From an archaeon (lineage in GTDB: Archaea > Hydrothermarchaeota > Hydrothermarchaeia > JALTZZ01): a stretch of 46,398 nucleotides of DNA. The notes under the pieces were generated by a model. It saw only the letters and a program-made list of their open reading frames with translations. It made no database searches and had not been told where the DNA came from. Location of the stretch: assembly GCA_027051165.1 (NCBI GenBank), contig JALTZZ010000090.1:1-46398 (forward strand). The letters run 5' to 3'. A program made the position numbers and the translations under genes. Position 1 is the stretch's first letter, and each line of letters opens with the position of its first letter. Positions 6,642 through 43,369 of this stretch are shown one piece after another.

Positions 6642-7105
6642 TTTTATTTTTTATGCTTCAATGTCTTATATTGTCTTTTTCAGTCTTGCAATGCTTTTCT
6701 GAGCTCTTAGCAATGCTTTATGCATGAATTATCCTACAACGTAAACAATTTCATTCTAAGATGTAATATCTAAGATGTAATCAAATTTTAAGTCAATTTA
6801 ACAACATGTAAATTTTAATTTCCAAGTATATATTTCAAATTTTTAATTTTTAATAATTATATTGCTATATGATATCTATTATCTATAATTTCATTATTCG
6901 TCTCAATAATTTTTATGATTTTTATGGAACATAATTATGCCTATTATTATAAGGAAAAATGCGACTGTTAAAAGAAAAATATCCTCCCAGCAGTATTGAA
7001 CAACACCGTTTGAGTATTCCATATCTCTTTATAAAACTTATTAACACAATACTCTTTTTTTGTAAACGCTTTTTAAATTTTTAGTATATTTGGTGTTACG
7101 CGAAT

Positions 7106-7135
7106 TCTATTAATAGATTATTAATTTTAATAATC
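7106..7135. promoter_or_regulatory. Two overlapping palindromes upstream of the heme lipoprotein gene
   Basis: TCTATTAATAGA at 7106-7117 is a perfect 12-bp palindrome. GATTATTAATTTTAATAATC at 7116-7135 is a perfect inverted repeat of two 9-base arms around TT. They share bases 7116-7117. They lie about 95-120 bp before the ATG at 7228, where an archaeal regulator could bind upstream of the promoter. An alternative is chance palindromicity in AT-rich DNA. Confidence 0.4.
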
Positions 7136-7149
7136 AAAAAGTTTTGTAA

Positions 7150-7171
7150 TTTAGAAAATAAATTTTCTAAA
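7150..7171. promoter_or_regulatory. 22-bp inverted repeat in the promoter region of the heme lipoprotein gene
   Basis: TTTAGAAAA (7150-7158) and TTTTCTAAA (7163-7171) are perfect 9-base arms separated by TAAA. The site lies 57-78 bp upstream of the start codon, close to where the core promoter should be, which fits an operator. The strong ribosome binding site GAGGTGGGGGT lies just before the ATG at 7228. Confidence 0.45.
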
Positions 7172-7227
7172 AAAGTTTTAATAGTTAAAAAAGAAAAATG
7201 TTATGAAAATAAACGAGAGGTGGGGGT

Positions 7228-8493
7228 ATGAAAAGGGCTTTACTGGTGTTATTACTGATAGGAATGTTTTTGGCTGTGGTGGGGTGTGCAAAACCACAAG
7301 AAAAGCCGCCAGCCGAAAAGCCTGCCGAAAAACCAGCACCCGAGAAACCTGCTGAAAAACCAGCTCCTTCTCTGAAGGAAGTATATAAGGGAACAGTTTA
7401 TGTTGCAGGAATGGGCGGACACTTTGCTGTTGCAGATATAATTATAGACCCAAGCGATACTAACCTGCCAATAAAAGTTACAAGCTTAGGTAGGATAGCT
7501 CTTGGTCCAGGAAAGCAGTATGGAACCCACGACCCAAGGATTGATTGGAACACAAACCTAATGTTCTGGTCAACGTATGTAAACGACAGCGGATACTACC
7601 ACGTTGGATACGTTGACCTTGCAACTGGCGAAGTTAAGGTTGACAAGAAGGTTCCAATACCAAAAGAAGTTAAGAAAAAGCCTTTTGGATGCGGTTCTGG
7701 TCAGACAAGAGATTACTATCTACCGGTCTTCATGACATATCCAGGATATATAGATATATACGATAAGAAAACAATGGAACTTGTTAAAAGAGTTTGGATA
7801 AAAGGAGACCCATTCCCAGAAACATACTGTTGGTATCATGGAACTAATTCCCCAGACGAAAAGGAGTTTGCTCTTATAGTAACTGAGTGTACCGAACCAA
7901 ATAACTTTAAGACATCTACCGGTAAAGTGTATCTATACATACTTGACCTTCCAGCACTTTTAAACGGTGAACTTAAAGTTTTAAGACAGATGACATTAAC
8001 CGGAGAACCCGGAAAAACTGCTGTATTTAGGCAGTTCTATACAAATGATGGCAAATACTTGCTGCAAAGTGGCAGGGATAGATTCTGGGTCATAGATGTT
8101 CAGAACATGAAGGTTGTTGATGAAAAAATTCTAACAGCAGTAGGATTCCCCGAAGGAACGGAAAACCATGATGCCATGCCAACACCAGACGACAAATACG
8201 CAATCCTAACGCTTAGATTACCGATACAAGAAAACGGTAAGACAGTCAAAGACGGAGTAATAGTCCTGTACGACATGCAGAAGAAGGAGATTGTAGGAAA
8301 GCCTGTATCAACATGTAAAGCATGCCACGGAAAAGCTATTGGATACGGTAAGAGTGCTATACTCTGCGGTATAGAAGGTTTCAAGACGCTTAAGAAGACG
8401 AAGATTGAGGAAACTGCAGTAACTGGCGGTGCAACACAGGCACCGACACCAGCTCAGCCAGCTGAAGAAGAGGTTCAGCTTGGCTGCGGATAA
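7228..8493 (+). CDS. Beta-propeller-like lipoprotein with one heme c motif and a C-terminal Cys-Gly
   Basis: This 421-aa exported protein has a lipoprotein signal (Ala-Val-Val-Gly-Cys, lipidated Cys20) followed by a Pro/Ala/Lys/Glu spacer of Glu-Lys-Pro-Ala repeats (about 25-47). Residues 50-360 show WD40/YVTN-like strand repeats (Val-Tyr-Leu-Tyr-Ile-Leu-Asp, Phe-Trp-Val-Ile-Asp-Val, Val-Ile-Val-Leu-Tyr-Asp). One heme c site, Cys-Lys-Ala-Cys-His, lies at 363-367. A Thr/Pro/Ala-rich linker then leads to the final residues Gln-Leu-Gly-Cys-Gly, with Cys420 second from the end. Further cysteines are at 155, 201, 221 and 380. The fold assignment is inference from pattern. Downstream dsr/tus genes suggest a role in sulfur compound conversion or electron transfer on the outer face. 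The C-terminus recalls the SoxY carrier arm (Gly-Gly-Cys-Gly-Gly), but no homology is shown. Confidence 0.7.
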   Translation: MKRALLVLLLIGMFLAVVGCAKPQEKPPAEKPAEKPAPEKPAEKPAPSLKEVYKGTVYVAGMGGHFAVADIIIDPSDTNLPIKVTSLGRIALGPGKQYGTHDPRIDWNTNLMFWSTYVNDSGYYHVGYVDLATGEVKVDKKVPIPKEVKKKPFGCGSGQTRDYYLPVFMTYPGYIDIYDKKTMELVKRVWIKGDPFPETYCWYHGTNSPDEKEFALIVTECTEPNNFKTSTGKVYLYILDLPALLNGELKVLRQMTLTGEPGKTAVFRQFYTNDGKYLLQSGRDRFWVIDVQNMKVVDEKILTAVGFPEGTENHDAMPTPDDKYAILTLRLPIQENGKTVKDGVIVLYDMQKKEIVGKPVSTCKACHGKAIGYGKSAILCGIEGFKTLKKTKIEETAVTGGATQAPTPAQPAEEEVQLGCG

Positions 8494-8513
8494 ACCCTCT
8501 TTGATGTTCCCAA

Positions 8514-8529
8514 TTTTTTTGTCTTTTTT
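8514..8529 (+). terminator. Poly-T transcription terminator
   Basis: Two T tracts, seven and six long and separated by GTC, follow the lipoprotein stop by 20 bp. This is the usual archaeal terminator form. It may be leaky and would lower expression of the downstream dsr-like genes relative to the lipoprotein. Confidence 0.5.
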
Positions 8530-8556
8530 GATTTAAGCTGAGTGGGGGTGCAATAT

Positions 8557-8841
8557 ATGGGGTTTGCGGTGTTTGTCAATAGCATAAACTGTGTGGATGT
8601 TTCAACGCTTGAAAGGCTGAATGTAGATGATCTTAGCATAGTGCTCGTTCAAGATGGTGTCTACCACGTTTTCATAAAGGATTCTCCAGTAAAGAAAAAA
8701 AATGCAAAGATATATGTTTTAAAGGAAGACCTTGAGTCAAGAGGGTTATCAGCGGAGAACGTTAGCGATGCAGAGGTGGTTGACTACTCAAAGCTTGTTG
8801 ATCTCATGATGGGAGAGTTTGAAAAGATGGTATGGCTTTAG
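8557..8841 (+). CDS. DsrH/TusB-like sulfur relay protein
   Basis: This 94-aa cytosolic protein fits DsrH/TusB, the small subunit of the DsrEFH (TusBCD) sulfur-transfer hexamer. Diagnostic features are Ile-Val-Leu-Val-Gln-Asp-Gly-Val-Tyr-His near residue 30, the alternating strand-helix layout, and the C-terminal Met-Val-Trp-Leu, since family members typically end around a Trp. A single Cys lies at residue 12. The start is placed at the ATG at 8557, because GGGGGTG lies seven bases upstream; a GTG at 8542 has no such signal. It is followed closely by the DsrE and DsrF partners, each preceded by its own ribosome binding site. It may bind and balance the DsrE active-site subunit without transferring sulfur itself. 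Confidence 0.78.
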   Translation: MGFAVFVNSINCVDVSTLERLNVDDLSIVLVQDGVYHVFIKDSPVKKKNAKIYVLKEDLESRGLSAENVSDAEVVDYSKLVDLMMGEFEKMVWL

Positions 8842-8858
8842 CTTTGGGGGTGTTTTTC

Positions 8859-9218
8859 ATGGGAACTCTGGTTATAGGAATTCTTACGAGACCTTACGGT
8901 TCAACAAACTGGGCTTTTGTTCTAAATCTTGCAAAAGCTGCACTTGAAAAGGGTCATAAAGTAAAGATATGGTGCTCTGGTGATGCAAACTTCATTTTAA
9001 AGAAAAATCAGAAGCCATTTGCAAAGAAGTTCAACTATGAGTCCCAGATAAAGGAGCTGATTGAGAAGGGTCTCGAAATAGTTGGCTGTGAGTCTTGCCA
9101 TCTAATGCGAGGAATTCACGAAGAAGAATTCATTGAAGGCGTTCCATCAAGAACAATGACATGGTTCTTTGAGAACATTGCAACAGCTGATAGAGTATTG
9201 TTTATAGGTGAGGAGTGA
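8859..9218 (+). CDS. DsrE/TusD-like sulfurtransferase subunit
   Basis: This 119-aa protein has the DsrE fold: an N-terminal strand Leu-Val-Ile-Gly-Ile-Leu-Thr-Arg-Pro-Tyr, a helix rich in Ala and Gly-His, and the active-site motif Cys-x-x-Cys-x-x-x-Arg-Gly (Cys-Glu-Ser-Cys-His-Leu-Met-Arg-Gly) at about 78-86. In DsrE/TusD a cysteine in this motif carries persulfide sulfur. The Cys-Glu-Ser-Cys-His sequence looks like a heme site, but the protein has no signal peptide, so heme attachment is unlikely. The ATG at 8859 is chosen because GGGGGTG lies seven bases upstream; upstream in-frame codons overlap dsrH. It overlaps the next gene by one base (TGATG). Confidence 0.85.
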   Translation: MGTLVIGILTRPYGSTNWAFVLNLAKAALEKGHKVKIWCSGDANFILKKNQKPFAKKFNYESQIKELIEKGLEIVGCESCHLMRGIHEEEFIEGVPSRTMTWFFENIATADRVLFIGEE

Positions 9219-9616
9219 TGGCGACGAAGAAGGTTCTTATCTTGGTTAGAAGCAACATGAAGGAAGAGGTTCCAAATCTTGGTATTGATCATGCAATGGG
9301 TGCAATGGCTGTTTTCTTAGAGGATGTTGAGTTTCAGGCAACAGTAGCATTTATAAACAGCGGTGTTCTCAACTGCATGAAGGGACAGAAGTTCTTAGAT
9401 GTCTACGGAGTTGAGGGTGTAGAAAACGTTATAAAGCTTGCACTTGCGAGTGATGTTAGGATAGTAGCATGCAAGGAAGACTTGGAGAAGTATGGAATAT
9501 CAGAGGAAATGCTCACGGATGCAAAGGAGCTTGGTGTAGAGACCGGAATAGAGGTTCTTCCTTGGGAAAAGATAAACGAGGAGATAAAAGAAGCAGATTA
9601 CGTCCTCTTCTTCTGA
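9218..9616 (+). CDS. DsrF/TusC-like sulfur relay protein (DsrE superfamily)
   Basis: This 132-aa DsrE-superfamily protein completes a DsrH-DsrE-DsrF set. It opens with Lys-Lys-Val-Leu-Ile-Leu-Val-Arg-Ser-Asn. It contains the Ala-Met-Gly-Ala-Met-Ala helix, a Cys in Leu-Asn-Cys-Met, and Val-Ala-Cys-Lys-Glu-Asp-Leu-Glu-Lys-Tyr-Gly-Ile at about 87-98, matching the active-site region of DsrE/DsrF paralogues. Cys89 is the likely counterpart of the sulfur-carrying residue. Translation begins at the ATG sharing one base with the dsrE stop, so the two subunits are coupled. Assignment to DsrF specifically, as opposed to a second DsrE, rests on gene order and is less certain. Confidence 0.75.
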   Translation: MATKKVLILVRSNMKEEVPNLGIDHAMGAMAVFLEDVEFQATVAFINSGVLNCMKGQKFLDVYGVEGVENVIKLALASDVRIVACKEDLEKYGISEEMLTDAKELGVETGIEVLPWEKINEEIKEADYVLFF

Positions 9617-9645
9617 AGTTTTTAAATTTTTTCAAGAGCTCTGCA

Positions 9646-11346
9646 ATGACTTTTTATAATTTTGTTTTGATTTTTTTAATTTTAATAAATCTGCTTTTTT
9701 CTGCAAGCTTATATGAGAGCTGCGATTACTGTCATTCAAACGGAACTTTAATGAAGAACTATTCATTTTACGTTTTCTCTGTAGAAGAGGTTTGGAACGA
9801 GAGTAGGATGTTTAGAGAGGGATTAGGCGGTCCACTATGCAGCGACTGCCACCTTGGAAATGCAACCTCTTTTGATGAAAAAACTGCGCACAGCAAAATT
9901 CTAACCCTGATAGTTGTAGGGAAGGATAAGCTCCTCCCAATTGACAGAAGCTTCTATTTAGAGATAAAGAACTACAGCAATAAGACCTATATTTATCTCC
10001 TAAATGGAACGGAATATATAAAAACTGTTCTGTATCACGACAGAAACAGAACTACATACGGTTTCGATATAAATATTGCAAATAAAACATGCGGAAAATG
10101 CCACTCAAAGATCGTAGATGAATTTTCGAGAAGCATAATGGGTAGTGTAAGGTTTCAATCGCTATACGTAAACTTCTCATATCCGGCACCTCACGACTGC
10201 GGATACTGGTTAAAAAACTTTTCCCTAATAAAAAATGAGCTCTCAGTAAGCTATACAAAGGAGCAGGCTGAGCTGAACAGAAGGGTCTGCAACCAGTGCC
10301 ACGTATCCTGCTTGGACTGCCACTACAAGCCGCAGATCGGTAAGCATGCCTTCAGAAGATTTGTTGAGCCTTCTACGTGCTATTACGGAAACGGCAGAGG
10401 TATATGCCACTCTGGAGCGGAAGAGTTCAGGAGAGGTGGAAGCTACTTTAAAGGTTATTTTACAAATAAATCCGACATTCATGCTGATATTGGGCTTTCC
10501 TGTCTTGACTGCCATATTTTTATGAACCACAACATCGAAAGAAAAGCTTACTGCAAGGACTGCCACAAAAACGTTGAGAAGAAGATAAAAAGAAGTGTTC
10601 ACAGAAATCTCAGCTGCGAGGCATGCCACATCTCAACGGAGCTCGGCGGCTATCAGATAGTTGTCTGGGGACCGGGACTATACTGGAACATGTCAACCCC
10701 TCTAACAAAGCATAAGTATTTCGGCAAAATGAACACAACTCTCTTAATAAAAAACATGGAGGGAACATGGATACCAGTAAAACCGATACCTCATTTTGTT
10801 TTGAATATAAAAGAAAAAATAGAAAAAACCGGTCTTAAATTTAGGATTGTTGAGGGGAGGAACTTTTCAAACGATGCATACATTGTTTTCGGAACGTTTA
10901 GAATAGGGAATACAAGTGTGGTAGCATGGCTCCACATGGATAAGGTTTCTCACGGCATGGGCAAGGGTAAAAACTGCACCTCTTGCCATGCAGACGGTAG
11001 CCAACTAATACTTTCTAAATGGTGGTTTAAGGATGAAGGTTTTCTTATGAAAGGAAGAACAGTGATAGTTGCGAATTCTACTGGAATATACGTGAGTATA
11101 TTGGGTAACGCTTCCCCTGAGAGTTTATACAGCTATGCTCCATGGATGGAGATTCAGAACCTGAGCAGCATGGGGAGCTATGCGCTTCCGAAGATTTCAG
11201 AAGAGTGCGAAGAATATTGCTTAAAGTGTCATGCATCGCACCACGATACCATTTTACCAAAGTATATGACTGTAGATCCTTATTTTTATGCTCTTTTAAT
11301 AATTTTTTTAATACTTTTTATTCTTATTATAGTTATCAGAAGATGA
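9646..11346 (+). CDS. Membrane-anchored decaheme c-type cytochrome
   Basis: This 566-aa protein has an N-terminal signal or anchor (about 4-20, Phe-Val-Leu-Ile-Phe-Leu-Ile-Leu) and a C-terminal transmembrane helix (about 547-564) ending Arg-Arg. The body therefore lies outside the membrane. Ten CxxCH heme motifs start at residues 26, 65, 149, 215, 222, 286, 303, 324, 444 and 525. An eleventh possible site is C-x8-CH at 245-255 (Cys-Tyr-Tyr-Gly-Asn-Gly-Arg-Gly-Ile-Cys-His). Many N-glycosylation sequons (N-x-S/T) are present. The start is the ATG at 9646, which begins exactly at the signal sequence; a longer in-frame reading overlaps dsrF. It follows dsrF by 29 bp. A role as an electron conduit or terminal reductase for a sulfur compound or metal is inference. 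No known multiheme family was identified with certainty. Confidence 0.88.
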   Translation: MTFYNFVLIFLILINLLFSASLYESCDYCHSNGTLMKNYSFYVFSVEEVWNESRMFREGLGGPLCSDCHLGNATSFDEKTAHSKILTLIVVGKDKLLPIDRSFYLEIKNYSNKTYIYLLNGTEYIKTVLYHDRNRTTYGFDINIANKTCGKCHSKIVDEFSRSIMGSVRFQSLYVNFSYPAPHDCGYWLKNFSLIKNELSVSYTKEQAELNRRVCNQCHVSCLDCHYKPQIGKHAFRRFVEPSTCYYGNGRGICHSGAEEFRRGGSYFKGYFTNKSDIHADIGLSCLDCHIFMNHNIERKAYCKDCHKNVEKKIKRSVHRNLSCEACHISTELGGYQIVVWGPGLYWNMSTPLTKHKYFGKMNTTLLIKNMEGTWIPVKPIPHFVLNIKEKIEKTGLKFRIVEGRNFSNDAYIVFGTFRIGNTSVVAWLHMDKVSHGMGKGKNCTSCHADGSQLILSKWWFKDEGFLMKGRTVIVANSTGIYVSILGNASPESLYSYAPWMEIQNLSSMGSYALPKISEECEEYCLKCHASHHDTILPKYMTVDPYFYALLIIFLILFILIIVIRR

Positions 11347-11454
11347 GAATAAAGTATATGATTAATAATTAAGAATATATCAATACTTGAGAAATCGTAG
11401 CGAATATTGTAAAAATCTTTCGTGCAAATTTATTATAAAAAATAATGGTTAATT

Positions 11455-11464
11455 TTTTATATGA
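11455..11464 (+). promoter_or_regulatory. TATA box before tusA
   Basis: TTTTTATATG lies 46-55 bp upstream of the tusA ATG at 11510, in the 163-bp gap after the decaheme gene. It would give a leader of about 25 bases carrying the GGGGGT ribosome binding site at 11497-11502. It suggests that tusA and the two transporter genes form a separate transcription unit. Confidence 0.45.
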
Positions 11465-11509
11465 AGGTTGTTCTAAGTAATTCCAAACCGATAAGCGGGG
11501 GTATGGGTG

Positions 11510-11770
11510 ATGGCTGTTGTAAATCTACCAGATATAGGAGAGGTTGAAGTACATAAGCAGGTGAACTGTTCTGGAATGGTTTGTCCGAGACCGCAACTTG
11601 AGGTAAAGAAGGCTATACAATCAATGAACTCTGGAGAGGTGGCAGAGGTTATTATAACGAACCCGCCATCTGTTGAGACTGTTAGCGAGCTTATAAAAAA
11701 GATGAAGTGCGAGCTTTTAGCCAAAGTTAAGGAGGGAAACGTCTTCAAGATATACTTCAAGAAACCCTGA
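11510..11770 (+). CDS. tusA: TusA family sulfur carrier protein
   Basis: This 86-aa protein has the TusA fold signature Cys-Pro-x-Pro (Val-Cys-Pro-Arg-Pro-Gln-Leu-Glu-Val-Lys-Lys-Ala) at about 23-34, where Cys24 carries persulfide sulfur. A second cysteine lies four residues before it (Cys19), and another is in the last helix region. TusA proteins deliver sulfur to DsrEFH/TusBCD in bacteria and archaea, and both sets are encoded here. GGGGGT lies seven bases upstream of the ATG at 11510; the GTG three bases earlier is an unlikely alternative. It precedes two YeeE/YedE-type membrane proteins, a pairing also seen in bacterial thiosulfate uptake loci. Confidence 0.92.
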   Translation: MAVVNLPDIGEVEVHKQVNCSGMVCPRPQLEVKKAIQSMNSGEVAEVIITNPPSVETVSELIKKMKCELLAKVKEGNVFKIYFKKP

Positions 11771-11785
11771 GTGGAGTTGTAGCTT

Positions 11786-12292
11786 ATGGGTGAGGAGAAG
11801 AAATCCATCTTCGAAACAGAGCTTGACTATAAGAAAGGCGGAGTTATATTAGGTATAATGCTCGTTCTCCTCGTCATACCAGCTTTAGGCTACGGAAGGG
11901 CATGGGCGTTTGCTGGCGGCTTAAGGTGGATAGATAAAACCATCATTGGAGCAATATCTCCCGATACTATAGCTGGTAATCCCTTCTGGAGGATCCTCAA
12001 GGCAAATCCAGAGGTAGCATTGATGTTAGCGTTCTTTGTGCTCGGAAGCTTTGTTGCAGCAGTTCTATCTAAGGAGTTCGTTATCGGCATGGATAAGCAG
12101 TTTCTCCTTGAATCAATAGTGGGCGGATTCCTCATGGGGGTTGGCATAGTTCTCATAACAACATGCAACGTTGGCTGCTTCCTAAACGGCTTGCCGCAGC
12201 TCAACCTCGGTGCAATGATAGCTGGCGTAGGGCTTATAATAGGGACCTACATCGGCGGAAAATACTACGAAAAGAAGGTTATGAGCCTATGA
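11786..12292 (+). CDS. YeeE/YedE-type sulfur compound transporter, half 1
   Basis: This 168-aa membrane protein has about four hydrophobic segments (about 18-35, 76-95, 107-130 and 142-160). The family signature Gly-x-x-Met-Gly-x-Gly-Ile-x-Leu-x-x-x-Cys-Asn-x-Gly-Cys-Phe-Leu-Asn-Gly lies near residues 114-136. In the characterised family member TsuA, such cysteines guide thiosulfate through the membrane. Here the usual Gly-Cys-Thr is Thr-Cys-Asn, with a second Cys three residues on. Full-length family members are about 350 aa with two such halves; this gene and the next together make up that length. It starts 15 bp after tusA and ends one base before the GAGGTG that precedes the second half. 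The transported compound is not known. Confidence 0.82.
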   Translation: MGEEKKSIFETELDYKKGGVILGIMLVLLVIPALGYGRAWAFAGGLRWIDKTIIGAISPDTIAGNPFWRILKANPEVALMLAFFVLGSFVAAVLSKEFVIGMDKQFLLESIVGGFLMGVGIVLITTCNVGCFLNGLPQLNLGAMIAGVGLIIGTYIGGKYYEKKVMSL

Positions 12293-12302
12293 GGTGTCTA
12301 AA

Positions 12303-12851
12303 ATGGTTGAACCTGTCTACATATCAGCGGCAGTTTTTGGATTTATACTTGGTTTTCTCGTTCAAAGGTCAAGGTTCTGCATGACAAGTGCTATAAGAGA
12401 TTTTCTACTGTTTAAGGTTACAAGGAACCTAAAGATGGCTCTTATAATACTTGTGATAACAACGTTCTTCTACACACTCTTCCTAACGTTCAACGTTTTC
12501 AAGCCTACGCCAATACCAGCTGGCTGGTTCAGCTTTGTAGGCGGTATATTGTTCGGCATCGGCATGGCTATCGCTGGTGGTTGCGTTATATCAACGTTTT
12601 CAAGGATAGGGCAGGGGAACATAAACTACGTCATAGTAGCGATCTTCATGCTGATAGGGATATACGTTGGAAGCTATCTGTTCAAGCTGATACCAAATGC
12701 GTTGCCACCAAAAACACAGCTGTTCGGGTATAAGGCAGGTCTTGTCTGGCTACACAAACTGTTCAACGTCCCACCAATAGTTTTGGGAATAATATTTACA
12801 GTGATCTTTGCACTCGCCTACATATACTTGGAGAGAAAAGAATCTTTGTAA
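12303..12851 (+). CDS. YeeE/YedE-type sulfur compound transporter, half 2
   Basis: This 182-aa membrane protein has about five hydrophobic segments. It carries the N-terminal family motif Gly-Phe-x-x-Gly-Phe-x-x-Gln-Arg-Ser-Arg-Phe-Cys-Met-x-x-Ala-Ile-Arg-Asp at about 13-33. The second signature Gly-x-Gly-Met-Ala-x-Ala-Gly-Gly-Cys-Val-Ile-Ser-Thr lies at about 86-99. The cysteines in Phe-Cys-Met and Gly-Gly-Cys match the conserved thiol positions of the family. The start is placed at the ATG at 12303, six bases after GAGGTG; a GTG at 12294 would add three residues. It probably pairs with the preceding half to form one channel and hands sulfur to TusA. A T-rich terminator follows. Confidence 0.85.
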   Translation: MVEPVYISAAVFGFILGFLVQRSRFCMTSAIRDFLLFKVTRNLKMALIILVITTFFYTLFLTFNVFKPTPIPAGWFSFVGGILFGIGMAIAGGCVISTFSRIGQGNINYVIVAIFMLIGIYVGSYLFKLIPNALPPKTQLFGYKAGLVWLHKLFNVPPIVLGIIFTVIFALAYIYLERKESL

Positions 12852-29616: not shown

Positions 29617-30094
29617 AGCTACCCACCGCTTTTCTTTCTGCATTTTCTATAGTTTCTTTTATGCTCTTCCAGTGTCCGCCGTGCCAGTATATCTTTCCAC
29701 ATTTCTTACATATCCAGAATTCATCTATATAGTTATATACCCTTTCTGGAACTCTGCCCTTAACCTTTTCTTTTTCTATTGGTTCAACGTCGCTGTTGCA
29801 TATTGGGCATCTCGCCTCTGCTGGGGTTTTATTGAATTTAAATCCTTTATTTATTAATTCGGCAATCTGATCATCTATTTCTTGTGATTTGACATATATA
29901 GCTTTTATACCCTTATTTATTGCTTTTTCGAACAGTTCTTTATCTCTTGTTATGAGAACTCTTGACAGTCTCTCTGCAGTGCCGAGAATTTCTTCGTCGC
30001 TGCATCTCATATATAGAACATCGTATCCGCTGAGCCTTAGATATCTTACAAGCCTTCCAAGCATGCTGTCTGCAATTATCTTAGGCTTTTCCAT
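29609..30094 (-). CDS. Mut7-C RNase-domain protein with a zinc ribbon
   Basis: This 161-aa protein belongs to the Mut7-C family, a PIN-like RNase fold followed by a zinc ribbon. The PIN-like part starts Ile-Ile-Ala-Asp-Ser-Met-Leu-Gly-Arg-Leu-Val-Arg-Tyr-Leu-Arg-Leu-Ser-Gly-Tyr and continues with Leu-Ile-Thr-Arg-Asp-Lys-Glu-Leu. The ribbon pairs Cys-Pro-Ile-Cys with Cys-Lys-Lys-Cys, then Tyr-Trp-His-Gly-Gly-His-Trp. The ATG at 30094 lies inside the end of cdhE (14-bp overlap); a start at 30115 is possible. The physiological RNA target is unknown. Its placement directly behind cdhE ties its expression to the CODH operon, perhaps only by read-through. Confidence 0.85.
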   Translation of the reverse strand: MEKPKIIADSMLGRLVRYLRLSGYDVLYMRCSDEEILGTAERLSRVLITRDKELFEKAINKGIKAIYVKSQEIDDQIAELINKGFKFNKTPAEARCPICNSDVEPIEKEKVKGRVPERVYNYIDEFWICKKCGKIYWHGGHWKSIKETIENAERKAVGSYG

Positions 30095-31481
30095 TTTTCT
30101 TCCATTTCTCTTCAATAAATTTCGGTATCCTTGAGGAATCTATAGGACCTACTAAAACACGCCAGCCGGTTATATCTTCTATTTCACCACTAAGCCTTGC
30201 TGCCATACCCGGTATTATTATTGTTTTATGATTAACTTTCTCATCAACTTTAAATTTTTCGAGATGCTCTTTAACTAAACTTGCAGTAAACTTAGCTCCA
30301 GCTAAAGCCGGTTCCACAGCTAAACCCTCGGTATCAAGCACTAAAATGTAGGCATCTACCTTTCCAGCCTCAACATCGCTTGCGACTGTATAGTATGTTA
30401 GTGCGAAGTTTGTTGTAACGAGGACTGGAGAGCTTTCATTAGGCTTTCCTATAGCATATAATCCCGGCTCTACTTGGATAGGAACCCTTGGATCTGTGTA
30501 TATGTTCTGTCTTAGCGTTAGCAATGGAAGGATTGCCCAAGTTTCTAATGTATGCATAAATATAATATCGGCATAGTTTAGCATGAGAGATGCAGCAAGA
30601 GAACTTTCGAGATGACTTGCTTTTATCGGATCGCTTTCAACAAGCCATGCTACCGTTGCGTTTCCCAATATAGGTTTTCCAAGAGGTTTGAATCCATCTT
30701 CTATTGCCGCTCTCCTTGCGGATATCATGTTTTCTATCGCTCTTGCAAGAGGTTCTCCTTGCGGATAAGTTCCAAAATCGAGGATTATATCGCTAACACC
30801 ATATTCTTCTATATCTTGAACGAGATCGCTCATTTTTTCGATATCTTCCTCATATACCACCAGAGGACAGTTATAATTTTTCGCAAGTTCGGCAAATTTC
30901 TTCCAATTATTCCTTGTAGCTGCATATATGAGGGGTCTTCTGTTAATAGCTATTCCCAAGCCGACTTCAATTATCTCTGGATTAAAGCTACATAGAGCAA
31001 TAGGCATCTTGGAGTTTTCGACAACTTTAAGCACAACTTCACCGAATCTAACCTCGTCGTTTGTTTTGCATCTGATAGCTATACCATCAAGCTTCAGCTC
31101 CTGACCAACTCGCTCAATTTTAAATTTGTTTATTCTCCTAACACGTTCTTCAATTTCTTCATCGCTCATATCGTCGCTTATATCAATGAAGAGAGCTGTG
31201 GGATTAAAAAACGTGAGCTCATGCCTGTATAAAACTTCCTCTCCTCCGACCTTTAACCCATCACCAATAACAACTTCTTTTATAGGAGGAGTTAAAAGTT
31301 CTATAAGCTTCTCCCTTTTCTCTTTATATTTATCTTCTTCAAATAAAACGGTGCAGTCTTCTACTTTCTTTTTTCTTTCTATCAGCTGACTTGCAAAAGC
31401 CATGCATGTGTCTGCACCACATTTCTTGCAGTTTATTCCTGGCAGCAACTTATATACCTCTAACGGGCTAATCCTTGCCAT
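30081..31481 (-). CDS. cdhE: Acetyl-CoA decarbonylase/synthase gamma subunit (large corrinoid Fe-S subunit)
   Basis: This 466-aa subunit of the corrinoid iron-sulfur protein carries the [4Fe-4S] domain at the N-terminus and a TIM-barrel methyl/cobamide-binding part. The cluster motif is Asn-Cys-Lys-Lys-Cys-Gly-Ala-Asp-Thr-Cys-Met-Ala-Phe-Ala at about 17-30 with the fourth Cys in Val-Glu-Asp-Cys at about 43. It moves the methyl group between tetrahydropterin and the acetyl-CoA synthase CdhC. The C-terminal half contains Gly-Leu-Ala-Val-Glu-Pro-Ala-Leu-Ala-Gly-Ala-Lys-Phe and ends in Gly-Pro-Ile-Asp-Ser-Ser-Arg-Ile-Pro. It is the last enzyme gene of the operon cdhC-cooC-cdhD-Fe-S protein-cdhE. 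The domain resembles the next upstream protein's N-terminus. Confidence 0.95.
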   Translation of the reverse strand: MARISPLEVYKLLPGINCKKCGADTCMAFASQLIERKKKVEDCTVLFEEDKYKEKREKLIELLTPPIKEVVIGDGLKVGGEEVLYRHELTFFNPTALFIDISDDMSDEEIEERVRRINKFKIERVGQELKLDGIAIRCKTNDEVRFGEVVLKVVENSKMPIALCSFNPEIIEVGLGIAINRRPLIYAATRNNWKKFAELAKNYNCPLVVYEEDIEKMSDLVQDIEEYGVSDIILDFGTYPQGEPLARAIENMISARRAAIEDGFKPLGKPILGNATVAWLVESDPIKASHLESSLAASLMLNYADIIFMHTLETWAILPLLTLRQNIYTDPRVPIQVEPGLYAIGKPNESSPVLVTTNFALTYYTVASDVEAGKVDAYILVLDTEGLAVEPALAGAKFTASLVKEHLEKFKVDEKVNHKTIIIPGMAARLSGEIEDITGWRVLVGPIDSSRIPKFIEEKWKKNGKA

Positions 31482-31496
31482 GTTATCACCCTGTTG

Positions 31497-31961
31497 CTAA
31501 AGAAATTCTATAGCTTTTGTCGGACACGAATCAACACAAACGGTGCAGGGTCTTGTTTCTATATCTCCTTCAAACCTTCTACAGAGCTTTAAGTTGGCTG
31601 GCTTAACTACACCATCTTTAACAACAAGAACGGTAACGTCTTCCCTCGGACCTTTACCCCCACTTGCTTCTAAACTAACGGAAACGTTTGGAGGACATGC
31701 AATGACACAGCTTCCGCATCCCATACATTTTTCTTCGTGAACAACGAGTTTTGTTTCAGTAGCTTTCAAATATTGGCTTGCTATCTCCTTTAATTTAAGT
31801 TTTTGCTTTAGATACTTTGCAGTATTTAATTCTGGACAGTCTTCTATACCTACTTTACGCTCAATAAATCTAACGGCAAATGCCATACAGCTTGGGAGTC
31901 CACACTTTTTACAGTTTGTTTTTGGGAGTAGTTTATATATATCCATTGGCTTCAGCTTCAT
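31497..31961 (-). CDS. Iron-sulfur protein fusing a CdhE-like cluster domain to a ferredoxin
   Basis: This 154-aa protein has an N-terminal cluster domain nearly identical in layout to CdhE (Thr-Asn-Cys-Lys-Lys-Cys-Gly-Leu-Pro-Ser-Cys-Met-Ala-Phe-Ala, then Glu-Asp-Cys-Pro). It is followed by a two-cluster ferredoxin. The first ferredoxin site is a canonical C-x2-C-x2-C-x3-CP (Cys-Met-Gly-Cys-Gly-Ser-Cys-Val-Ile-Ala-Cys-Pro). The second is irregular: the first Cys lies 12 residues before Cys-Thr-Val-Cys-Val-Asp-Ser-Cys-Pro. It sits between cdhD and cdhE. It may deliver low-potential electrons to reactivate the corrinoid protein; this is inference. The start is placed at the ATG at 31961, after AAAGTGAT; a GTG at 31970 is possible. 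Confidence 0.85.
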   Translation of the reverse strand: MKLKPMDIYKLLPKTNCKKCGLPSCMAFAVRFIERKVGIEDCPELNTAKYLKQKLKLKEIASQYLKATETKLVVHEEKCMGCGSCVIACPPNVSVSLEASGGKGPREDVTVLVVKDGVVKPANLKLCRRFEGDIETRPCTVCVDSCPTKAIEFL

Positions 31962-31971
31962 TTTTATCACT

Positions 31972-33135
31972 TTAAATTTTTATCCAATCTTCATATTTTA
32001 CTTCTCTGCTCGGGTTAACCTTTTCAAATATTGATGTTATTACCATTTTAACGGTCTTAACGGCTAATGGATGAAGCATCATCATTATATCTGCTCCAGC
32101 GAAAAGCACGGCTAAGGCATTTACGGTTTCCCAGAGCGGACCTCTGTATTCTCGTGCACCCCATTCTGGGGTTTTCATCCAAGATTCCCTTGCACCCCAA
32201 GCGTTTGTAACACCGCATGATATCGGGTTTTGAAGTTCGCTATCGCCCTTGAGGGCGTTCTGCTTTATTCTCTGAATAATAGAATATGTATATTCTAATC
32301 CGTATCCAAGGGCTGCAGTCGTTGGGTCCTGAACGAGCCTGTTCCTTGGTAGCCCTTCCTCAAAGAGGAGCTTGTTTAAGCTCTTTTGATCGTTTATATC
32401 TAAGCTTGTCCATGAAAGGACGTTGTGTTTATATTTTATGGCAACTTGAGCTACCTTTTTGTAATCTAAATCAAAGTTTGCACTTGCTATTAGGCAGAGC
32501 TCTCCTTCAGCAACCTCAGCAACCTTTTCGAAAACCTTAGGATCTTTTTCTGGATTTCCACTACCTCCGATTATTATCGGTGCTTTTATTTGCTGCAGCA
32601 GCTCTTCAACGGTTTTAGCTGCTTCTCTTGGGGAAGTATCCTTTATGTGAGGATCTGTTGATACGAGATGTATTGTTATAAGGTCGGCTCCATATTCAAG
32701 AGCCTTCTCTGCCCACGCTACAGGGTCGTGCCATACCTCGCTCCATATTTCCCTTAAAACCTTTGGAAATTGTGGTTGAGGTATGTCAAAGACGTCGAAG
32801 CTCACAACCGGTCTGTTTTTGTATCCTCCTTCATAGGGATATAGAGTTGTCTGCCCACCTATCTTTATAACATAATCTCTCGTCCCACCTTCTTTTCTCG
32901 TAGCACCTATCTGAACTTCCTGTATAGAGCCTGTATATTCCCTTATTTTTCTCTCATATTTTAGCTTTTCCTTCTTCTTTTCAACTTTCTCTTTCTTTGC
33001 ATGTTTAGCTACTGGTATATAAGCTAAACCCTGTTTAAGCTCCATTATAAGCTCCTGAGCTTCTATAGATACACCTTCAAGCTCTATTTCATCCACCTCA
33101 GACAGAATTCTTATTATATCATCGAGGTTCAGCAT
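31972..33135 (-). CDS. cdhD: Acetyl-CoA decarbonylase/synthase delta subunit (small corrinoid subunit)
   Basis: This 387-aa TIM-barrel protein partners CdhE in the corrinoid iron-sulfur complex. Recognisable blocks are Arg-Lys-Glu-Gly-Gly-Thr-Arg near residue 80, Gly-Gly-Gln-Thr-Thr-Leu-Tyr-Pro-Tyr-Glu-Gly near 93-103, Gly-Gly-Ser-Gly-Asn-Pro-Glu-Lys-Asp-Pro, and Gln-Asp-Pro-Thr-Thr-Ala-Ala-Leu-Gly-Tyr-Gly. An N-terminal extension of about 65 residues is charged and helical. The start codon shares one base with the cooC stop (TAATG arrangement), so the two genes are coupled. Confidence 0.95.
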   Translation of the reverse strand: MLNLDDIIRILSEVDEIELEGVSIEAQELIMELKQGLAYIPVAKHAKKEKVEKKKEKLKYERKIREYTGSIQEVQIGATRKEGGTRDYVIKIGGQTTLYPYEGGYKNRPVVSFDVFDIPQPQFPKVLREIWSEVWHDPVAWAEKALEYGADLITIHLVSTDPHIKDTSPREAAKTVEELLQQIKAPIIIGGSGNPEKDPKVFEKVAEVAEGELCLIASANFDLDYKKVAQVAIKYKHNVLSWTSLDINDQKSLNKLLFEEGLPRNRLVQDPTTAALGYGLEYTYSIIQRIKQNALKGDSELQNPISCGVTNAWGARESWMKTPEWGAREYRGPLWETVNALAVLFAGADIMMMLHPLAVKTVKMVITSIFEKVNPSREVKYEDWIKI

Positions 33136-33986
33136 TAGATCACCCTTCTATGTGCAAAGCCGTGAACGTGTGCATGCGTTACATGTGAGCGTTGTCCTGC
33201 ATAGAGCATTAAATCCTCTTCTTCTTCAATTTTTTTCTCAAGATCAAGCTTTTTGTATATCTCCTCTACCGCTTTAAGAGCTTTTGAATCTTTGGGTAAC
33301 TCTATTAATGGTTTACCTTCAAGGTCATACTGTGCCACTATTTCGTCTTCTGGAATTATGCCGATAACCTCTAACCCAATGCTTTTCGCATATTCTTTAA
33401 TCTTCTCAACAAGACCTTCTTTTGCTCTGTTTATAACAATATAAACTTCTTTAAATTTAATATCGAGCTCTTCACTGAGCTCCTTTATTCTCTTCGCAGT
33501 GTTGATGCCACGCTTTGAGCAGTCGGTAACTATGAGCATTATGTCAACATCCTGCGTTGTTCTTCTTGAAAGATGCTCCAAGCCAGCTTCCGTATCTATA
33601 ACAACGACATCGTAGTTCTTCGCAAATGTATCTATTATCTCTCTAAGAACATGGTTTACCGCACAGTAGCAGCCTGGTCCCTCTGGTCTTCCCATAGCTA
33701 TTAGGTCGAATCTATCTCCTTCAACGAGGGCTTTCATTGCCTCATATTCAAGTGCGCTCCTCCAGCTTTGCCCAGGAGAAAGCTCTTCTCTTATTTCCCC
33801 AAGCTTCTCTCTAATATCACCTATCGTTGTCTTAACTTCCATTCCAAGGGCTTCTGGCAGATTGGAGTCCGGATCAGCATCTATGGCTAATATATCAAAC
33901 TGCGTTTTTTCGGCTAAAATTTTAATTAAAAGAGAGCTTACTAATGTTTTTCCTACACCACCCTTACCGCTTACGGCTATTATCAT
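33135..33986 (-). CDS. cooC: CooC-type nickel insertion ATPase with a histidine-rich tail
   Basis: This 283-aa MinD-superfamily ATPase has deviant Walker A Ser-Gly-Lys-Gly-Gly-Val-Gly-Lys-Thr at 6-14 and Asp-Ala-Asp-Pro-Asp-Ser-Asn at about 36-42. A Cys-x-Cys motif (Gly-Cys-Tyr-Cys-Ala, Cys106 and Cys108) is known in CooC/AcsF to bind nickel at the dimer interface. The last 16 residues carry five histidines (His268, 271, 273, 275 and 279), an added likely metal-binding tail. It lies between cdhC and cdhD and overlaps both (4 bp and 1 bp), which points to maturation of the CdhC nickel site. Its target could also be the CODH subunit CdhA, which is not in the window. Confidence 0.9.
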   Translation of the reverse strand: MIIAVSGKGGVGKTLVSSLLIKILAEKTQFDILAIDADPDSNLPEALGMEVKTTIGDIREKLGEIREELSPGQSWRSALEYEAMKALVEGDRFDLIAMGRPEGPGCYCAVNHVLREIIDTFAKNYDVVVIDTEAGLEHLSRRTTQDVDIMLIVTDCSKRGINTAKRIKELSEELDIKFKEVYIVINRAKEGLVEKIKEYAKSIGLEVIGIIPEDEIVAQYDLEGKPLIELPKDSKALKAVEEIYKKLDLEKKIEEEEDLMLYAGQRSHVTHAHVHGFAHRRVI

Positions 33987-35362
33987 TTGCTACCCCTTTT
34001 TATGATTATCTTCTCTGCATATATTTTCGCATTCTTGAAAACTATTGTTATGTTGCCTACTCCGGGAGCAAAGGCTTTTGCTTCTACAGTAGGCATTTCT
34101 ACATACTCTTCCTCTGGCTTTTCTTCTGCTTCCTCTTTCTTTTCTTCCTCCTTTGCCCAGCGTTCTACTACTGGGTGATTCTTTTCCTCTAAGAACTTCT
34201 TCAGGCTCTCTAAGTCTGTTGCATCCTCTTCAGTGGCTATTTTATCTCTGAGCTCTTCTGGAATTGCGTTCAGGACCCTTTCTTTTAAGGCTTTTGGCAT
34301 CCACACTATTCTCTTCCAACCACCATCTGCTTGCAAGAACTTGCTCGAACGCATATACTCTACACCTATGCCGACAAAGCCGTCTGTCTGCACGCCGCCG
34401 CCTACTTGTCCAGCCATCGTTGAGAACGGTATTCCAAAAGGCGTTACTCCTCTGAAGTCTCTGTGAACTATTCCTATGCCGTCAACCTCTGGTATGTAGA
34501 ACGCTATGGCTTCAAAGCATCCACAGCTCGTATGTGGATGCTCAAACACGCTATGTAGAAAGACTCTCGTAACAGTTCCACCGCTCTTCTCTGCAAAAAC
34601 CTTATTTATTCCAGAGTATTCTCCCTTAACCGGATCGAGAAGTTCCCCCTTTGGTATCTCAAAAATAGGACCCTTTGGATCAACCTTAACAGCAGCTCTA
34701 CCTTCAAACCACGTTATTGCACCGCATGAGCTTGGTCTGCTTGGCGTTATTGCACAAACATGCGTAGGTGCAAAGCTCTGGCAGAGAACACAGCCGTAGA
34801 AGACGTCAACCTCCTCGTCTTTAAGACCTCTTGCTCTTGAATCTCTCTTTTCATAAACCTCTCTTGCCATTTCAATAAATTCCTTAGCCTTCTCTGGCTC
34901 TGTTATAAAGGTAACCTGAACTTTCTTTATTGCTTCATATTCTTGCTTGAATATTCTTGCAAGAACTTTACCAACGTGATGTAGGCTTAGTCCCTTAGAA
35001 ACAGCATCCTTACTAACTCTGCACCATATTATATCTCTTGAATTGAGATGCATAAACCCCTGAACGTAGTTGCAGAAGTCATGAATTCTTCTTTCAAAAA
35101 CACCTTCTAAATCTTCTTCAAGCTTCTCTCCAGCAACCTCAACATAAATACAGAACGGATAAGCTTTACCTTGTTCCATATCTTTAAAGTCTGGACCTAT
35201 AACAGTTACCTTCTCATCTTCCACCTCATCCATAGGCTTTACTCTAAGCAGTTCAGCACCAAAACTCTTTGGACCCGCAAGATCCGCATACATCTGAGCT
35301 TTTCTAATTCTTTCACCTTCATATATTAAGCCCACATCTACTGGTATGTCCTCGAACGCCAT
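33983..35362 (-). CDS. cdhC: Acetyl-CoA decarbonylase/synthase beta subunit (acetyl-CoA synthase)
   Basis: This 459-aa enzyme joins a methyl group, CO and CoA to acetyl-CoA, or runs the reverse reaction. The A-cluster ligands are clear: Cys191, Cys194, Cys203 and Cys213 for the [4Fe-4S] cluster and Cys280-Gly-Cys282 for the distal nickel. Phe-Tyr-Gly-Cys-Val-Leu-Cys-Gln-Ser-Phe-Ala-Pro and Pro-Phe-Ser/Gly-x-Met-Ala-Gly type motifs match the archaeal enzyme. A Glu/Lys-rich linker (about 388-414) leads to a C-terminal beta strand region, as in other archaeal CdhC. The start is the ATG at 35362, behind GAGGTG; an in-frame upstream start at 35395 would add 11 residues. It is the first gene of the operon and overlaps cooC by four bases. 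Confidence 0.96.
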   Translation of the reverse strand: MAFEDIPVDVGLIYEGERIRKAQMYADLAGPKSFGAELLRVKPMDEVEDEKVTVIGPDFKDMEQGKAYPFCIYVEVAGEKLEEDLEGVFERRIHDFCNYVQGFMHLNSRDIIWCRVSKDAVSKGLSLHHVGKVLARIFKQEYEAIKKVQVTFITEPEKAKEFIEMAREVYEKRDSRARGLKDEEVDVFYGCVLCQSFAPTHVCAITPSRPSSCGAITWFEGRAAVKVDPKGPIFEIPKGELLDPVKGEYSGINKVFAEKSGGTVTRVFLHSVFEHPHTSCGCFEAIAFYIPEVDGIGIVHRDFRGVTPFGIPFSTMAGQVGGGVQTDGFVGIGVEYMRSSKFLQADGGWKRIVWMPKALKERVLNAIPEELRDKIATEEDATDLESLKKFLEEKNHPVVERWAKEEEKKEEAEEKPEEEYVEMPTVEAKAFAPGVGNITIVFKNAKIYAEKIIIKRGSK

Positions 35363-35410
35363 GCTCCAGCACCTCAATCTATCATTATTTATCATTATCT
35401 TTTTGGGCTC

Positions 35411-38174: not shown

Positions 38175-39054
38175 GGGATGTTTTACAGCAATAGTTACTC
38201 CATTTAAGGGCACGGGAGTTAAAAGCGAGGTGGATTATGAAGCGTATAGAGAGCTTATAGAGTTTCAAGACCAAAATAAGATAGATGGCATAGTAGCCTG
38301 CGGAACCACTGGCGAGAGCCCAGTTTTAAGCCATGAAGAGCATAATAAGGTTATAGAGTTTACAGTGGAGCATGCAAAGAGCATAGTAATCGCTGGAACC
38401 GGATCGAACTGCACATGGGAAGCTCTTGAGATGACGAAGCATGCATTTGACGTAGGGGCACATGCCACGCTTCAGGTAGTTCCCTACTATAACAAGCCAA
38501 ATCAAGAGGGATTATACAGACACTTTGCAACAATAGCGGAGAAAGTGGACATGCCGATTATACTATACAACATACCAGCAAGAAGCTGTGTTTCGCTTGC
38601 ACCAGAAACGATGGCTAAGCTTAAGGAGGAGTTCTCGAACATTATAGGAGTTAAGGAAGCGAGTGGAAACGTTGAGGTTTGGAAAAAAATAAGGGAGCTC
38701 TGCGGGAAAGACTTCTTAATACTCTCAGGCAACGACAGCGATACATACACTCTTATGAAAGATTTCAATGCAAAAGGCGTTATATCAGTGGCTTCAAACA
38801 TAATTCCAAAAAGAATGCATGATTTTGTTGAGCTTGGGCTCAAAGGAGAATTTGAAAAGATGAAGGCTGAGCATGAAGCTTTAAAAGAACTCTTTGAGGT
38901 TCTGTTTATAGATACCAACCCAATACCAGTAAAAGAAGCAATGAACATGCTTGGTTTGAGGGCTGGAGGTTTTAGATATCCTCTTGTTGAAACAAGCGAA
39001 GAAAAGAGGGAGAAAATAAAAAACGTTCTTAAGAATTTAGGGCTTCTAAGCTAA
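38167..39054 (+). CDS. dapA: 4-hydroxy-tetrahydrodipicolinate synthase
   Basis: This 295-aa TIM-barrel lyase condenses pyruvate with aspartate semialdehyde in lysine synthesis. The motifs Gly-Cys-Phe-Thr-Ala-Ile-Val-Thr-Pro-Phe, Gly-Thr-Thr-Gly-Glu-Ser-Pro (Thr-Thr pair), Tyr-Asn-Ile-Pro-Ala-Arg-Ser (catalytic Tyr) and Gly-Val-Lys-Glu-Ala-Ser-Gly (Schiff-base Lys163) are all present. Ser-Gly-Asn-Asp-Ser and Asn-Pro-Ile-Pro-Val-Lys complete the family pattern. The start is the ATG at 38167, behind GTGAGG; the in-frame GTG at 38158 is rejected. Its product feeds, via DapB, the DapL encoded at 27329. The 3' end overlaps the convergent herA by 26 bp. Confidence 0.94.
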   Translation: MFKGCFTAIVTPFKGTGVKSEVDYEAYRELIEFQDQNKIDGIVACGTTGESPVLSHEEHNKVIEFTVEHAKSIVIAGTGSNCTWEALEMTKHAFDVGAHATLQVVPYYNKPNQEGLYRHFATIAEKVDMPIILYNIPARSCVSLAPETMAKLKEEFSNIIGVKEASGNVEVWKKIRELCGKDFLILSGNDSDTYTLMKDFNAKGVISVASNIIPKRMHDFVELGLKGEFEKMKAEHEALKELFEVLFIDTNPIPVKEAMNMLGLRAGGFRYPLVETSEEKREKIKNVLKNLGLLS

Positions 39055-41772: not shown

Positions 41773-41792
41773 GTATAGAATTTATTTTATTA

Positions 41793-41805
41793 TTTTATAT
41801 AAATA
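41793..41805 (-). promoter_or_regulatory. TATA box of the nurA-herA copy 1 operon, leaderless start
   Basis: Read on the minus strand the box is TATTTATATAAAA, centred about 27 bp upstream of the GTG at 41772. Transcription should therefore begin at or next to the start codon. Confidence 0.55.
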
Positions 41806-41891
41806 CTTTTCCTATAGACCAAAGCTGTATTTTTTAATTCATGAAATAAGGTAAGTATTCAAGCACAACTAACCACTACCGCTAAAGTGCA

Positions 41892-43364: not shown

Positions 43365-43369
43365 GGCGA

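Follow-up and report, generated by a model that had tools for sequence, protein, structure and literature searches.

Introduction

The YTD cluster (yeeE-tusA-dsrEFH type II) is known from Desulfobacterota and Nitrospirota (PMC12998232, PMC13293266, PMC13047784), and the complete cluster has been reported only in these two bacterial groups (PMC12998232). Work from 2026 established that its DsrE, Chp1 and Chp2 proteins make up the sulfur transferase DsrEFH type II, with DsrC as the acceptor (PMC13293266), and a structural analysis of YTD proteins reported the loss of the DsrH cysteine in YTD clusters (PMC13047784). In archaea, dsrEFH type II has been described beside dsrMK (PMC13293266), and half-size YeeE proteins, PmpA and PmpB, retain the equivalents of Cys91 and Cys293 (PMC11582611). 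The present work concerns eight adjacent genes at positions 7228-12851 of a 46,398-nucleotide stretch of archaeal DNA (contig JALTZZ010000090.1 of assembly GCA_027051165.1, Hydrothermarchaeota; the whole stretch is called the window), which combine a relay of this kind with two extracytoplasmic heme proteins, a lipoprotein (LIP) and a decaheme cytochrome c (MHC).

The way in which sulfur is oxidised or disproportionated with reductive-type DsrAB, and especially the extracytoplasmic step that feeds YeeE-TusA-DsrEFH, is disputed (PMC13293266, PMC13047784, PMC12998232). The locus joins an uncharacterised heme propeller and a decaheme cytochrome to this relay, in a lineage without a cultivated member. 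We give about an even chance to the reading that the block serves an anaerobic archaeon with dsrAB as an operon for taking up and relaying sulfane sulfur, in which LIP and MHC provide an extracytoplasmic redox step. All the evidence is sequence-based, and the genomes compared are metagenome-assembled.

The eight-gene block and its conservation

The genes of the block and the region preceding them are as follows:

6642..7227, plus strand: upstream intergenic region, 586 bp, A+T-rich, 5' of LIP
7228..8493, plus strand: LIP, monoheme lipoprotein with a predicted seven-bladed beta-propeller, 421 aa; lipobox VVGC with Cys20; one CxxCH at 363-367
8557..8841, plus strand: DsrH-like protein (TusB family); PF04077, 1.2e-13; TIGR03011, 55.9 bits, above cut-off
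8832..9218, plus strand: DsrE-like sulfurtransferase; PF02635, 7e-16; catalytic Cys86 in CESC
9215..9616, plus strand: DsrF-like protein; PF02635, 1.9e-5; order H-E-F kept with DsrH and DsrE
9646..11346, plus strand: MHC, decaheme cytochrome c; ten CxxCH; N-terminal signal segment; C-terminal transmembrane anchor, 546-564
11507..11770, plus strand: TusA sulfur carrier; PF01206, 6.2e-21; CPRP motif
11786..12292, plus strand: C-terminal half of a split YeeE/YedE (PmpA-like); PF04143 profile 170-310, 6.7e-16; Cys127/131; hydrophobic helices
12294..12851, plus strand: N-terminal half of the split YeeE/YedE (PmpB-like); PF04143 profile 1-154, 5.8e-28; Cys29 and Cys97 (GGC); hydrophobic helices

The original prediction, made from the letters of the window, had placed sulfur genes and two extracytoplasmic heme proteins together on one strand behind a 586-bp gap; both points were confirmed, and the promoter of the block probably lies in that gap. 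The identities given for TusA, DsrEFH and the split YeeE/YedE were borne out by Pfam and NCBIfam, by whose assignments the cytosolic or membrane sulfur genes number six and not seven. The listed open reading frame of DsrH starts at 8542 and its homologues begin at 8557, and the true start of DsrE is likely 8859 (MGTL). Along the block, the genes are separated by 63, -10, -4, 29, 160, 15 and 1 bases. Because the 160-bp gap separates MHC from tusA, two transcripts could be formed, lip-dsrHEF-mhc and tusA-yedE.

Recurrence of the gene order in related genomes, which had been proposed as a check, was looked for and found. A genome from another family of the same order as the host (G001) carries all eight genes in the same order on a 17-kb contig (C85; L027/L041). 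The amino-acid identities between the host (G000) and G001 are 79% for DsrE, 76 and 81% for the YedE halves, 73% for TusA and 66% for DsrF, and 61, 59 and 56% for LIP, MHC and DsrH, respectively. The rest of the 46-kb window had no match on the G001 contig, except for one weak match (28%) that was out of position. The full block is known from these two genomes. Since its order and sharp borders persist in a second family despite divergence to 56-81% identity, the eight-gene unit is under selection and not a product of chance. Unrelated genes lying side by side might be suspected from the flanks of the block, which hold unrelated housekeeping or surface-protein genes, but the exact order recurs with precise borders in the second family, and identities of 56-81% do not favour the idea that G001 recently acquired the block as a whole. 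Chance neighbourhood is, in our view, hardly credible.

The sulfur-relay genes and their host

In its gene content, the block has what defines a YTD cluster, namely a yedE-related gene (here split), tusA, a dsrE-like gene and another two conserved genes, here those of DsrF and DsrH. It also agrees with DsrEFH type II in having an active-site cysteine in DsrE, Cys86, which was invariant in 10 homologues, and a DsrH that lacks the type I Cys20; no conserved cysteine was found among nine DsrH sequences. When compared with the type I equivalog cut-offs, DsrE (21.1 bits versus 89.25) and DsrF (18.2 versus 94.15) were below and DsrH (55.9 versus 49.2) above. When the PDB was searched up to E<=1, the A. 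vinosum DsrE was not among the matches of DsrE, and DsrH matched 2hy5_C at 9e-5. The CESCH of DsrE belongs to the catalytic-cysteine motif of a cytosolic protein and does not mark a heme site. The two YeeE halves, of which the C-terminal one precedes the N-terminal one in gene order, cover profile ranges 170-310 and 1-154 as expected of PmpAB, with Cys127/131 and Cys97 (in GGC) matched by motif to the PmpAB cysteines. The archaeal host lies outside the range given for the YTD cluster (Desulfobacterota and Nitrospirota only), which is a statement of distribution and not a mechanistic feature. By these sequence features, the cytosolic part of the block is the known YTD/DsrEFH type II module, here in an archaeal variant, and the heme pair is the novel addition. 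The description of the system as undescribed therefore has to be divided: it stands for the heme pair, but YeeE-TusA-DsrEFH is the published YTD module (PMC13293266, PMC13047784, PMC12998232).

In a DsrE tree, the proteins of the window, G001 and G002 cluster together (84/86) amid relatives from the class, and a second DsrHEF set of the host, on contig C39, groups with Nitrospirota (96/91). This second set (L172, G000:C39:10924-11993) is followed by a thioredoxin-like gene, and the same locus (L172:1-2070, G000:C39:3000-5069) encodes a 690-aa protein with 13 CxxCH whose frame runs beyond the stretch examined. The DsrE of the window is 35-45% identical to Nitrospirota DsrE, and no close match was found in the Desulfobulbales LIP genomes searched. 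About 18 Nitrospirota genomes (e.g. G101:C2:195492-195833, G102:C4:10504-10848, G104:C2:15986-16336) have a second DsrE-like gene, mostly with one in-frame TGA, suggesting a selenocysteine-containing DsrE-like protein.

The Archaeoglobi had been implied as the host group; this origin was ruled out by kinship with the class that holds Ca. Pyrohabitans sp. JdFR-17 (Hydrothermarchaeota), to which G017 also belongs. The host genome (2.38 Mb, rated 100% complete) contains a DsrA at 472 bits and a DsrB-type match on contig C83, together with two DsrC above the cut-off, and a model search of the genome detected no AprA above the cut-off. Because dsrAB and two dsrC are present and AprA is absent, the sulfur metabolism of the host is probably at the level of sulfite. 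A similar picture was obtained for G001, G002, G006, G007, G013 and G017, which, like the host, have dsrA-type or dsrC genes and no aprA score above the cut-off; in G013, no full-length dsrA match was found. As aprA above the cut-off is missing in these archaea, sulfate reduction via adenosine 5'-phosphosulfate looks unlikely in all seven.

The two heme proteins

No Pfam family matched LIP. A scan of 85,000 genomes gave at least 107 relatives at the protein level, and the best 80 of the 107 come nearly all from Nitrospirota, Desulfobulbales and kin, Rokubacteria and Hydrothermarchaeota. An alignment of 75 sequences showed H65, H101, C155, H204, R268, H314 and C380 to be invariant, together with the heme motif. 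The AlphaFold model (AF2) has a high-confidence propeller core (core pLDDT above 90, mean pLDDT 87.5), in support, as a predicted fold, of the propeller-like lipoprotein proposed originally. According to the DSSP assignment of this model, the innermost strand of each of seven blades would begin with one of the seven invariant residues, and the loop with the heme would lie between blades 6 and 7.

The top fold match of LIP in the PDB was NirN, with many WD40 proteins close behind. Although NirN and cytochrome cd1 propellers rank first by fold, they are only 13-14% identical to LIP, whose heme motif sits between blades 6 and 7, unlike that of NirN. NirN has a separate N-terminal cytochrome c domain. 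The LIP family appears to be new, judging from Pfam and NCBIfam, which hold no model for it, and from the open-licence literature searched, which holds no description.

MHC has ten CxxCH motifs, compared with at most 2 in 2000 shuffles, and its homologues at 40-60% identity were found only within the class of the host. Its assignment to Ext, NrfA or another named multiheme family was rejected, since the matches were partial: 28.4 bits to the ExtN/ExtO selenite-tellurite cytochromes (NCBIfam cut-off 200) over residues 205-335 only, and an alignment of about 90 residues (E 1e-6) to NrfA nitrite reductases without similarity over the whole length.

Genomic context of the LIP family

LIP was found in 33 of 246 Nitrospirota genomes, and dsrA was present in 30 of these 33, compared with 79 of the 213 without LIP. 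In the archaea G017 and G007, a LIP homologue lies divergently about 2.4 kb from dsrAB; at these loci (L034, G017:C32; L035, G007:C97), the close LIP homologue adjoins an FtsX-like permease, a hemA-like gene and dsrAB. Neighbours were counted within 10 kb of 73 bacterial LIP loci, on fragments and with no genome-wide background for the counts. YedE or TusA occurred at 14 of the 73, LIP directly adjoining YedE in L066, L071 and L078 (with a Rieske gene) and TusA in L091, and an ABC ATPase was next to LIP at 55.

Genes for NosL, PCu(A)C or FtrD-like proteins were present at 28 of the 73 loci, and NosL is carried by 34 of 38 bacterial LIP genomes. These neighbours first suggested that LIP could be NosZ or L-NosZ (clade III nitrous oxide reductase, NF052460), that is, a copper reductase whose propeller copper would be loaded by NosL/PCuAC, with the sulfur genes helping to build a copper-sulfide centre. 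With L-NosZ, LIP shares a predicted propeller and a metal-binding-type ring of one residue per blade, as well as the NosL genes near its bacterial homologues. However, LIP has a heme c and ends after the propeller, without a C-terminal cupredoxin (CuA) domain; its ring has four invariant His, compared with seven candidate His in L-NosZ (counted by eye); it scored 12.6 bits on NF052460, whose cut-off is 700; and the profile comparison was weak (57% over 56 columns). Moreover, NosL is absent from the host genome, in spite of its completeness, and from G001. The domain, ring-residue, model-score and profile evidence ruled out LIP as NosZ or L-NosZ, and a copper reductase of this general kind is very improbable.

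Just upstream of LIP, several Nitrospirota (L043, L064, L073, L077, L089, L091, L106) encode a conserved protein of 90-110 aa that falls into no known family, and one of the same type lies farther away in L063. This protein was tried as a DsrE homologue and rejected (6.8% probability in the profile comparison, nothing in Pfam), and was not counted as a sulfur carrier. At Desulfobulbales-type loci (L105, L107, L110, L113-L116), NosL occurs in a divergent set together with a TlpA-like protein, a protein of about 100 aa with ATEARYTRHP and a second ABC pair, an unnamed module that may handle metals.

Elsewhere in the window, the minus strand encodes carbon monoxide dehydrogenase/acetyl-CoA synthase proteins at 30081-35395 (CdhC, CdhD, a second CdhD-family subunit and an accessory ATPase), so that genes of the Wood-Ljungdahl pathway lie near the sulfur cluster, and two HerA-NurA pairs in succession at 39029-44380.

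Proposed working of the locus

In the proposed uptake and relay operon, the substrate of LIP outside the membrane would be a sulfur compound, reduced or of mixed valence, namely sulfide, polysulfide or thiosulfate. The active site of LIP would lie at the centre of the propeller, beside heme c, and be made up of His65, His101, Cys155, His204, Arg268, His314 and Cys380. Electrons would be exchanged between LIP and the membrane-anchored MHC, and passed on from there to a cytochrome b/Rieske-type quinone oxidoreductase or to an extracellular acceptor. Sulfane sulfur would cross the membrane through the split YeeE, as a PmpAB-like heterodimer, and move from TusA to DsrEFH (Cys86 of DsrE) and DsrC, for turnover by DsrAB; without AprA, the oxidised product would end at sulfite. 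The putative YeeE-TusA-DsrEFH-DsrC relay is drawn from characterised homologues, and the likely substrate, redox role of LIP and MHC, electron partner and net direction from context. Conversion of a sulfur compound by the heme proteins is plausible. The conserved block, the association with dsrA and the adjacency of YedE/TusA in bacteria point to LIP and MHC as, most likely, the redox step that either generates the imported sulfur or goes with it.

Several observations weigh against such a common role. The two parts of the block could be regulated separately, given the 160-bp gap that precedes tusA. In G002, an 81% complete genome of the same genus as G001, DsrHEF lies next to a ThiF-like gene, with no LIP or MHC detected. 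In at least five relatives (G006, G007, G008, G013 and G017; L028-L032), a distant LIP paralogue, related to LIP over its full length by profile match, is placed divergently next to a thioredoxin-like gene and an MHC orthologue, with no sulfur carriers there. Among the bacterial loci, 59 of 73 lack TusA or YedE within 10 kb, and the constant partner of LIP, an FtsX-like ABC permease (62 of 73), is missing from the window. Finally, the co-occurrence of LIP and dsrA (Fisher p 3e-9, odds ratio 17) was computed without phylogenetic correction. The scattering of these genes among relatives had been named beforehand as what would speak against a common system. The idea withstands this check, since the full order is kept in G001, but its parts are modular in G002, in family f3 and in the paralogue pairs.

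This modularity, with the 160-bp gap, would also fit two modules with separate jobs, LIP-MHC being respiratory, for a non-sulfur or metal acceptor, and DsrEFH-TusA-split YeeE serving, for example, the sulfuration of tRNA or cofactors. Pairs of a LIP paralogue and a decaheme cytochrome do exist without sulfur genes, and DsrHEF occurs beside the ThiF-like gene in G002 and, in family f3, beside DsrM-/DsrK-like genes (labelled by eye) and a thioredoxin-like gene. However, dsrHEF sits between lip and mhc in an order that is kept as a whole at 56-81% identity, the LIP family tracks dsrA, and the link of orthologous DsrHEF to dsrMK is a link to a dissimilatory pathway. Two separate modules are, on balance, rather unlikely.

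One of the paralogue loci (G008, L032:9261-14235) holds the divergent LIP paralogue, a thioredoxin-like gene, a decaheme cytochrome, a Rieske protein and a cytochrome b (the last by eye), and seems to encode a separate, quinone-linked respiratory complex.

For the relay operon, we favour the oxidative direction, with sulfur flowing into DsrC, for two reasons: type II DsrEFH moves sulfur in vitro one way, towards DsrC (PMC13293266), and Desulfurivibrio alkaliphilus, from a genus with LIP homologues (L102, L111, L117), is now known to oxidise sulfide with iron(III) (PMC12545173). In the reductive direction, by sulfur disproportionation or thiosulfate/sulfite respiration, YeeE would import thiosulfate, TusA would take its sulfane sulfur, DsrAB would reduce sulfite and LIP/MHC would deliver electrons. 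The sulfite-level metabolism suggested by dsrAB and dsrC without aprA would suit this direction, the YTD cluster is up-regulated in thiosulfate disproportionation by Desulfolithobacter (PMC12998232, PMC13293266), and StYeeE/YeeD handle thiosulfate, according to the citations of PMC11073785 in PMC13047784 and PMC11582611. Apart from the one-way transfer, it is opposed by the finding that TusA, DsrEFH and DsrC of cable bacteria are not persulfidated by thiosulfate (PMC13293266), by the poor tracking of disproportionation by YTD (PMC13293266) and by the fact that no disproportionation has been observed in archaea (PMC12998232), and we consider it unlikely.

More tentatively, and with doubt prevailing, the LIP family could be a new class of extracytoplasmic oxidoreductases, heme-c beta-propellers with an active site of one His, Cys or Arg per blade that supply sulfane sulfur to YeeE/TusA/DsrEFH. 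If so, LIP would fill the missing first, extracytoplasmic step for bacteria and archaea that oxidise sulfur with reductive-type DsrAB, and every link of the chain, a decaheme wire included, would be united in the archaeal operon. The locus offers a named, testable protein family for the missing step.

Comparison with known systems

The split YeeE resembles PmpA/PmpB in consisting of two half-length proteins that cover the C- and N-terminal halves of Sulf_transp and have conserved cysteine motifs, and differs in the greater length of the halves (168 and 185 aa, compared with about 130) and in their linkage to DsrEFH, TusA and cytochromes. The archaeal dsrEFH-dsrMK loci (G003, G005, G006, G017) have orthologous DsrHEF in the same H-E-F order, with DsrE 60-63% identical to that of the window; there, dsrM/dsrK-like genes and a thioredoxin-like gene come next (with a multiheme gene in several), whereas the window has MHC-tusA-yedE in their place. 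With the YTD cluster, the block shares YeeE/YedE, TusA, three syntenic DsrE/F/H-like genes and the conserved DsrE cysteine, and its host, like YTD genomes, carries dsrAB and dsrC. It differs in the archaeal host, which is without aprA, in the split YeeE and in the two extracytoplasmic heme proteins within the block, and represents an archaeal version of a module otherwise reported complete only in bacteria.

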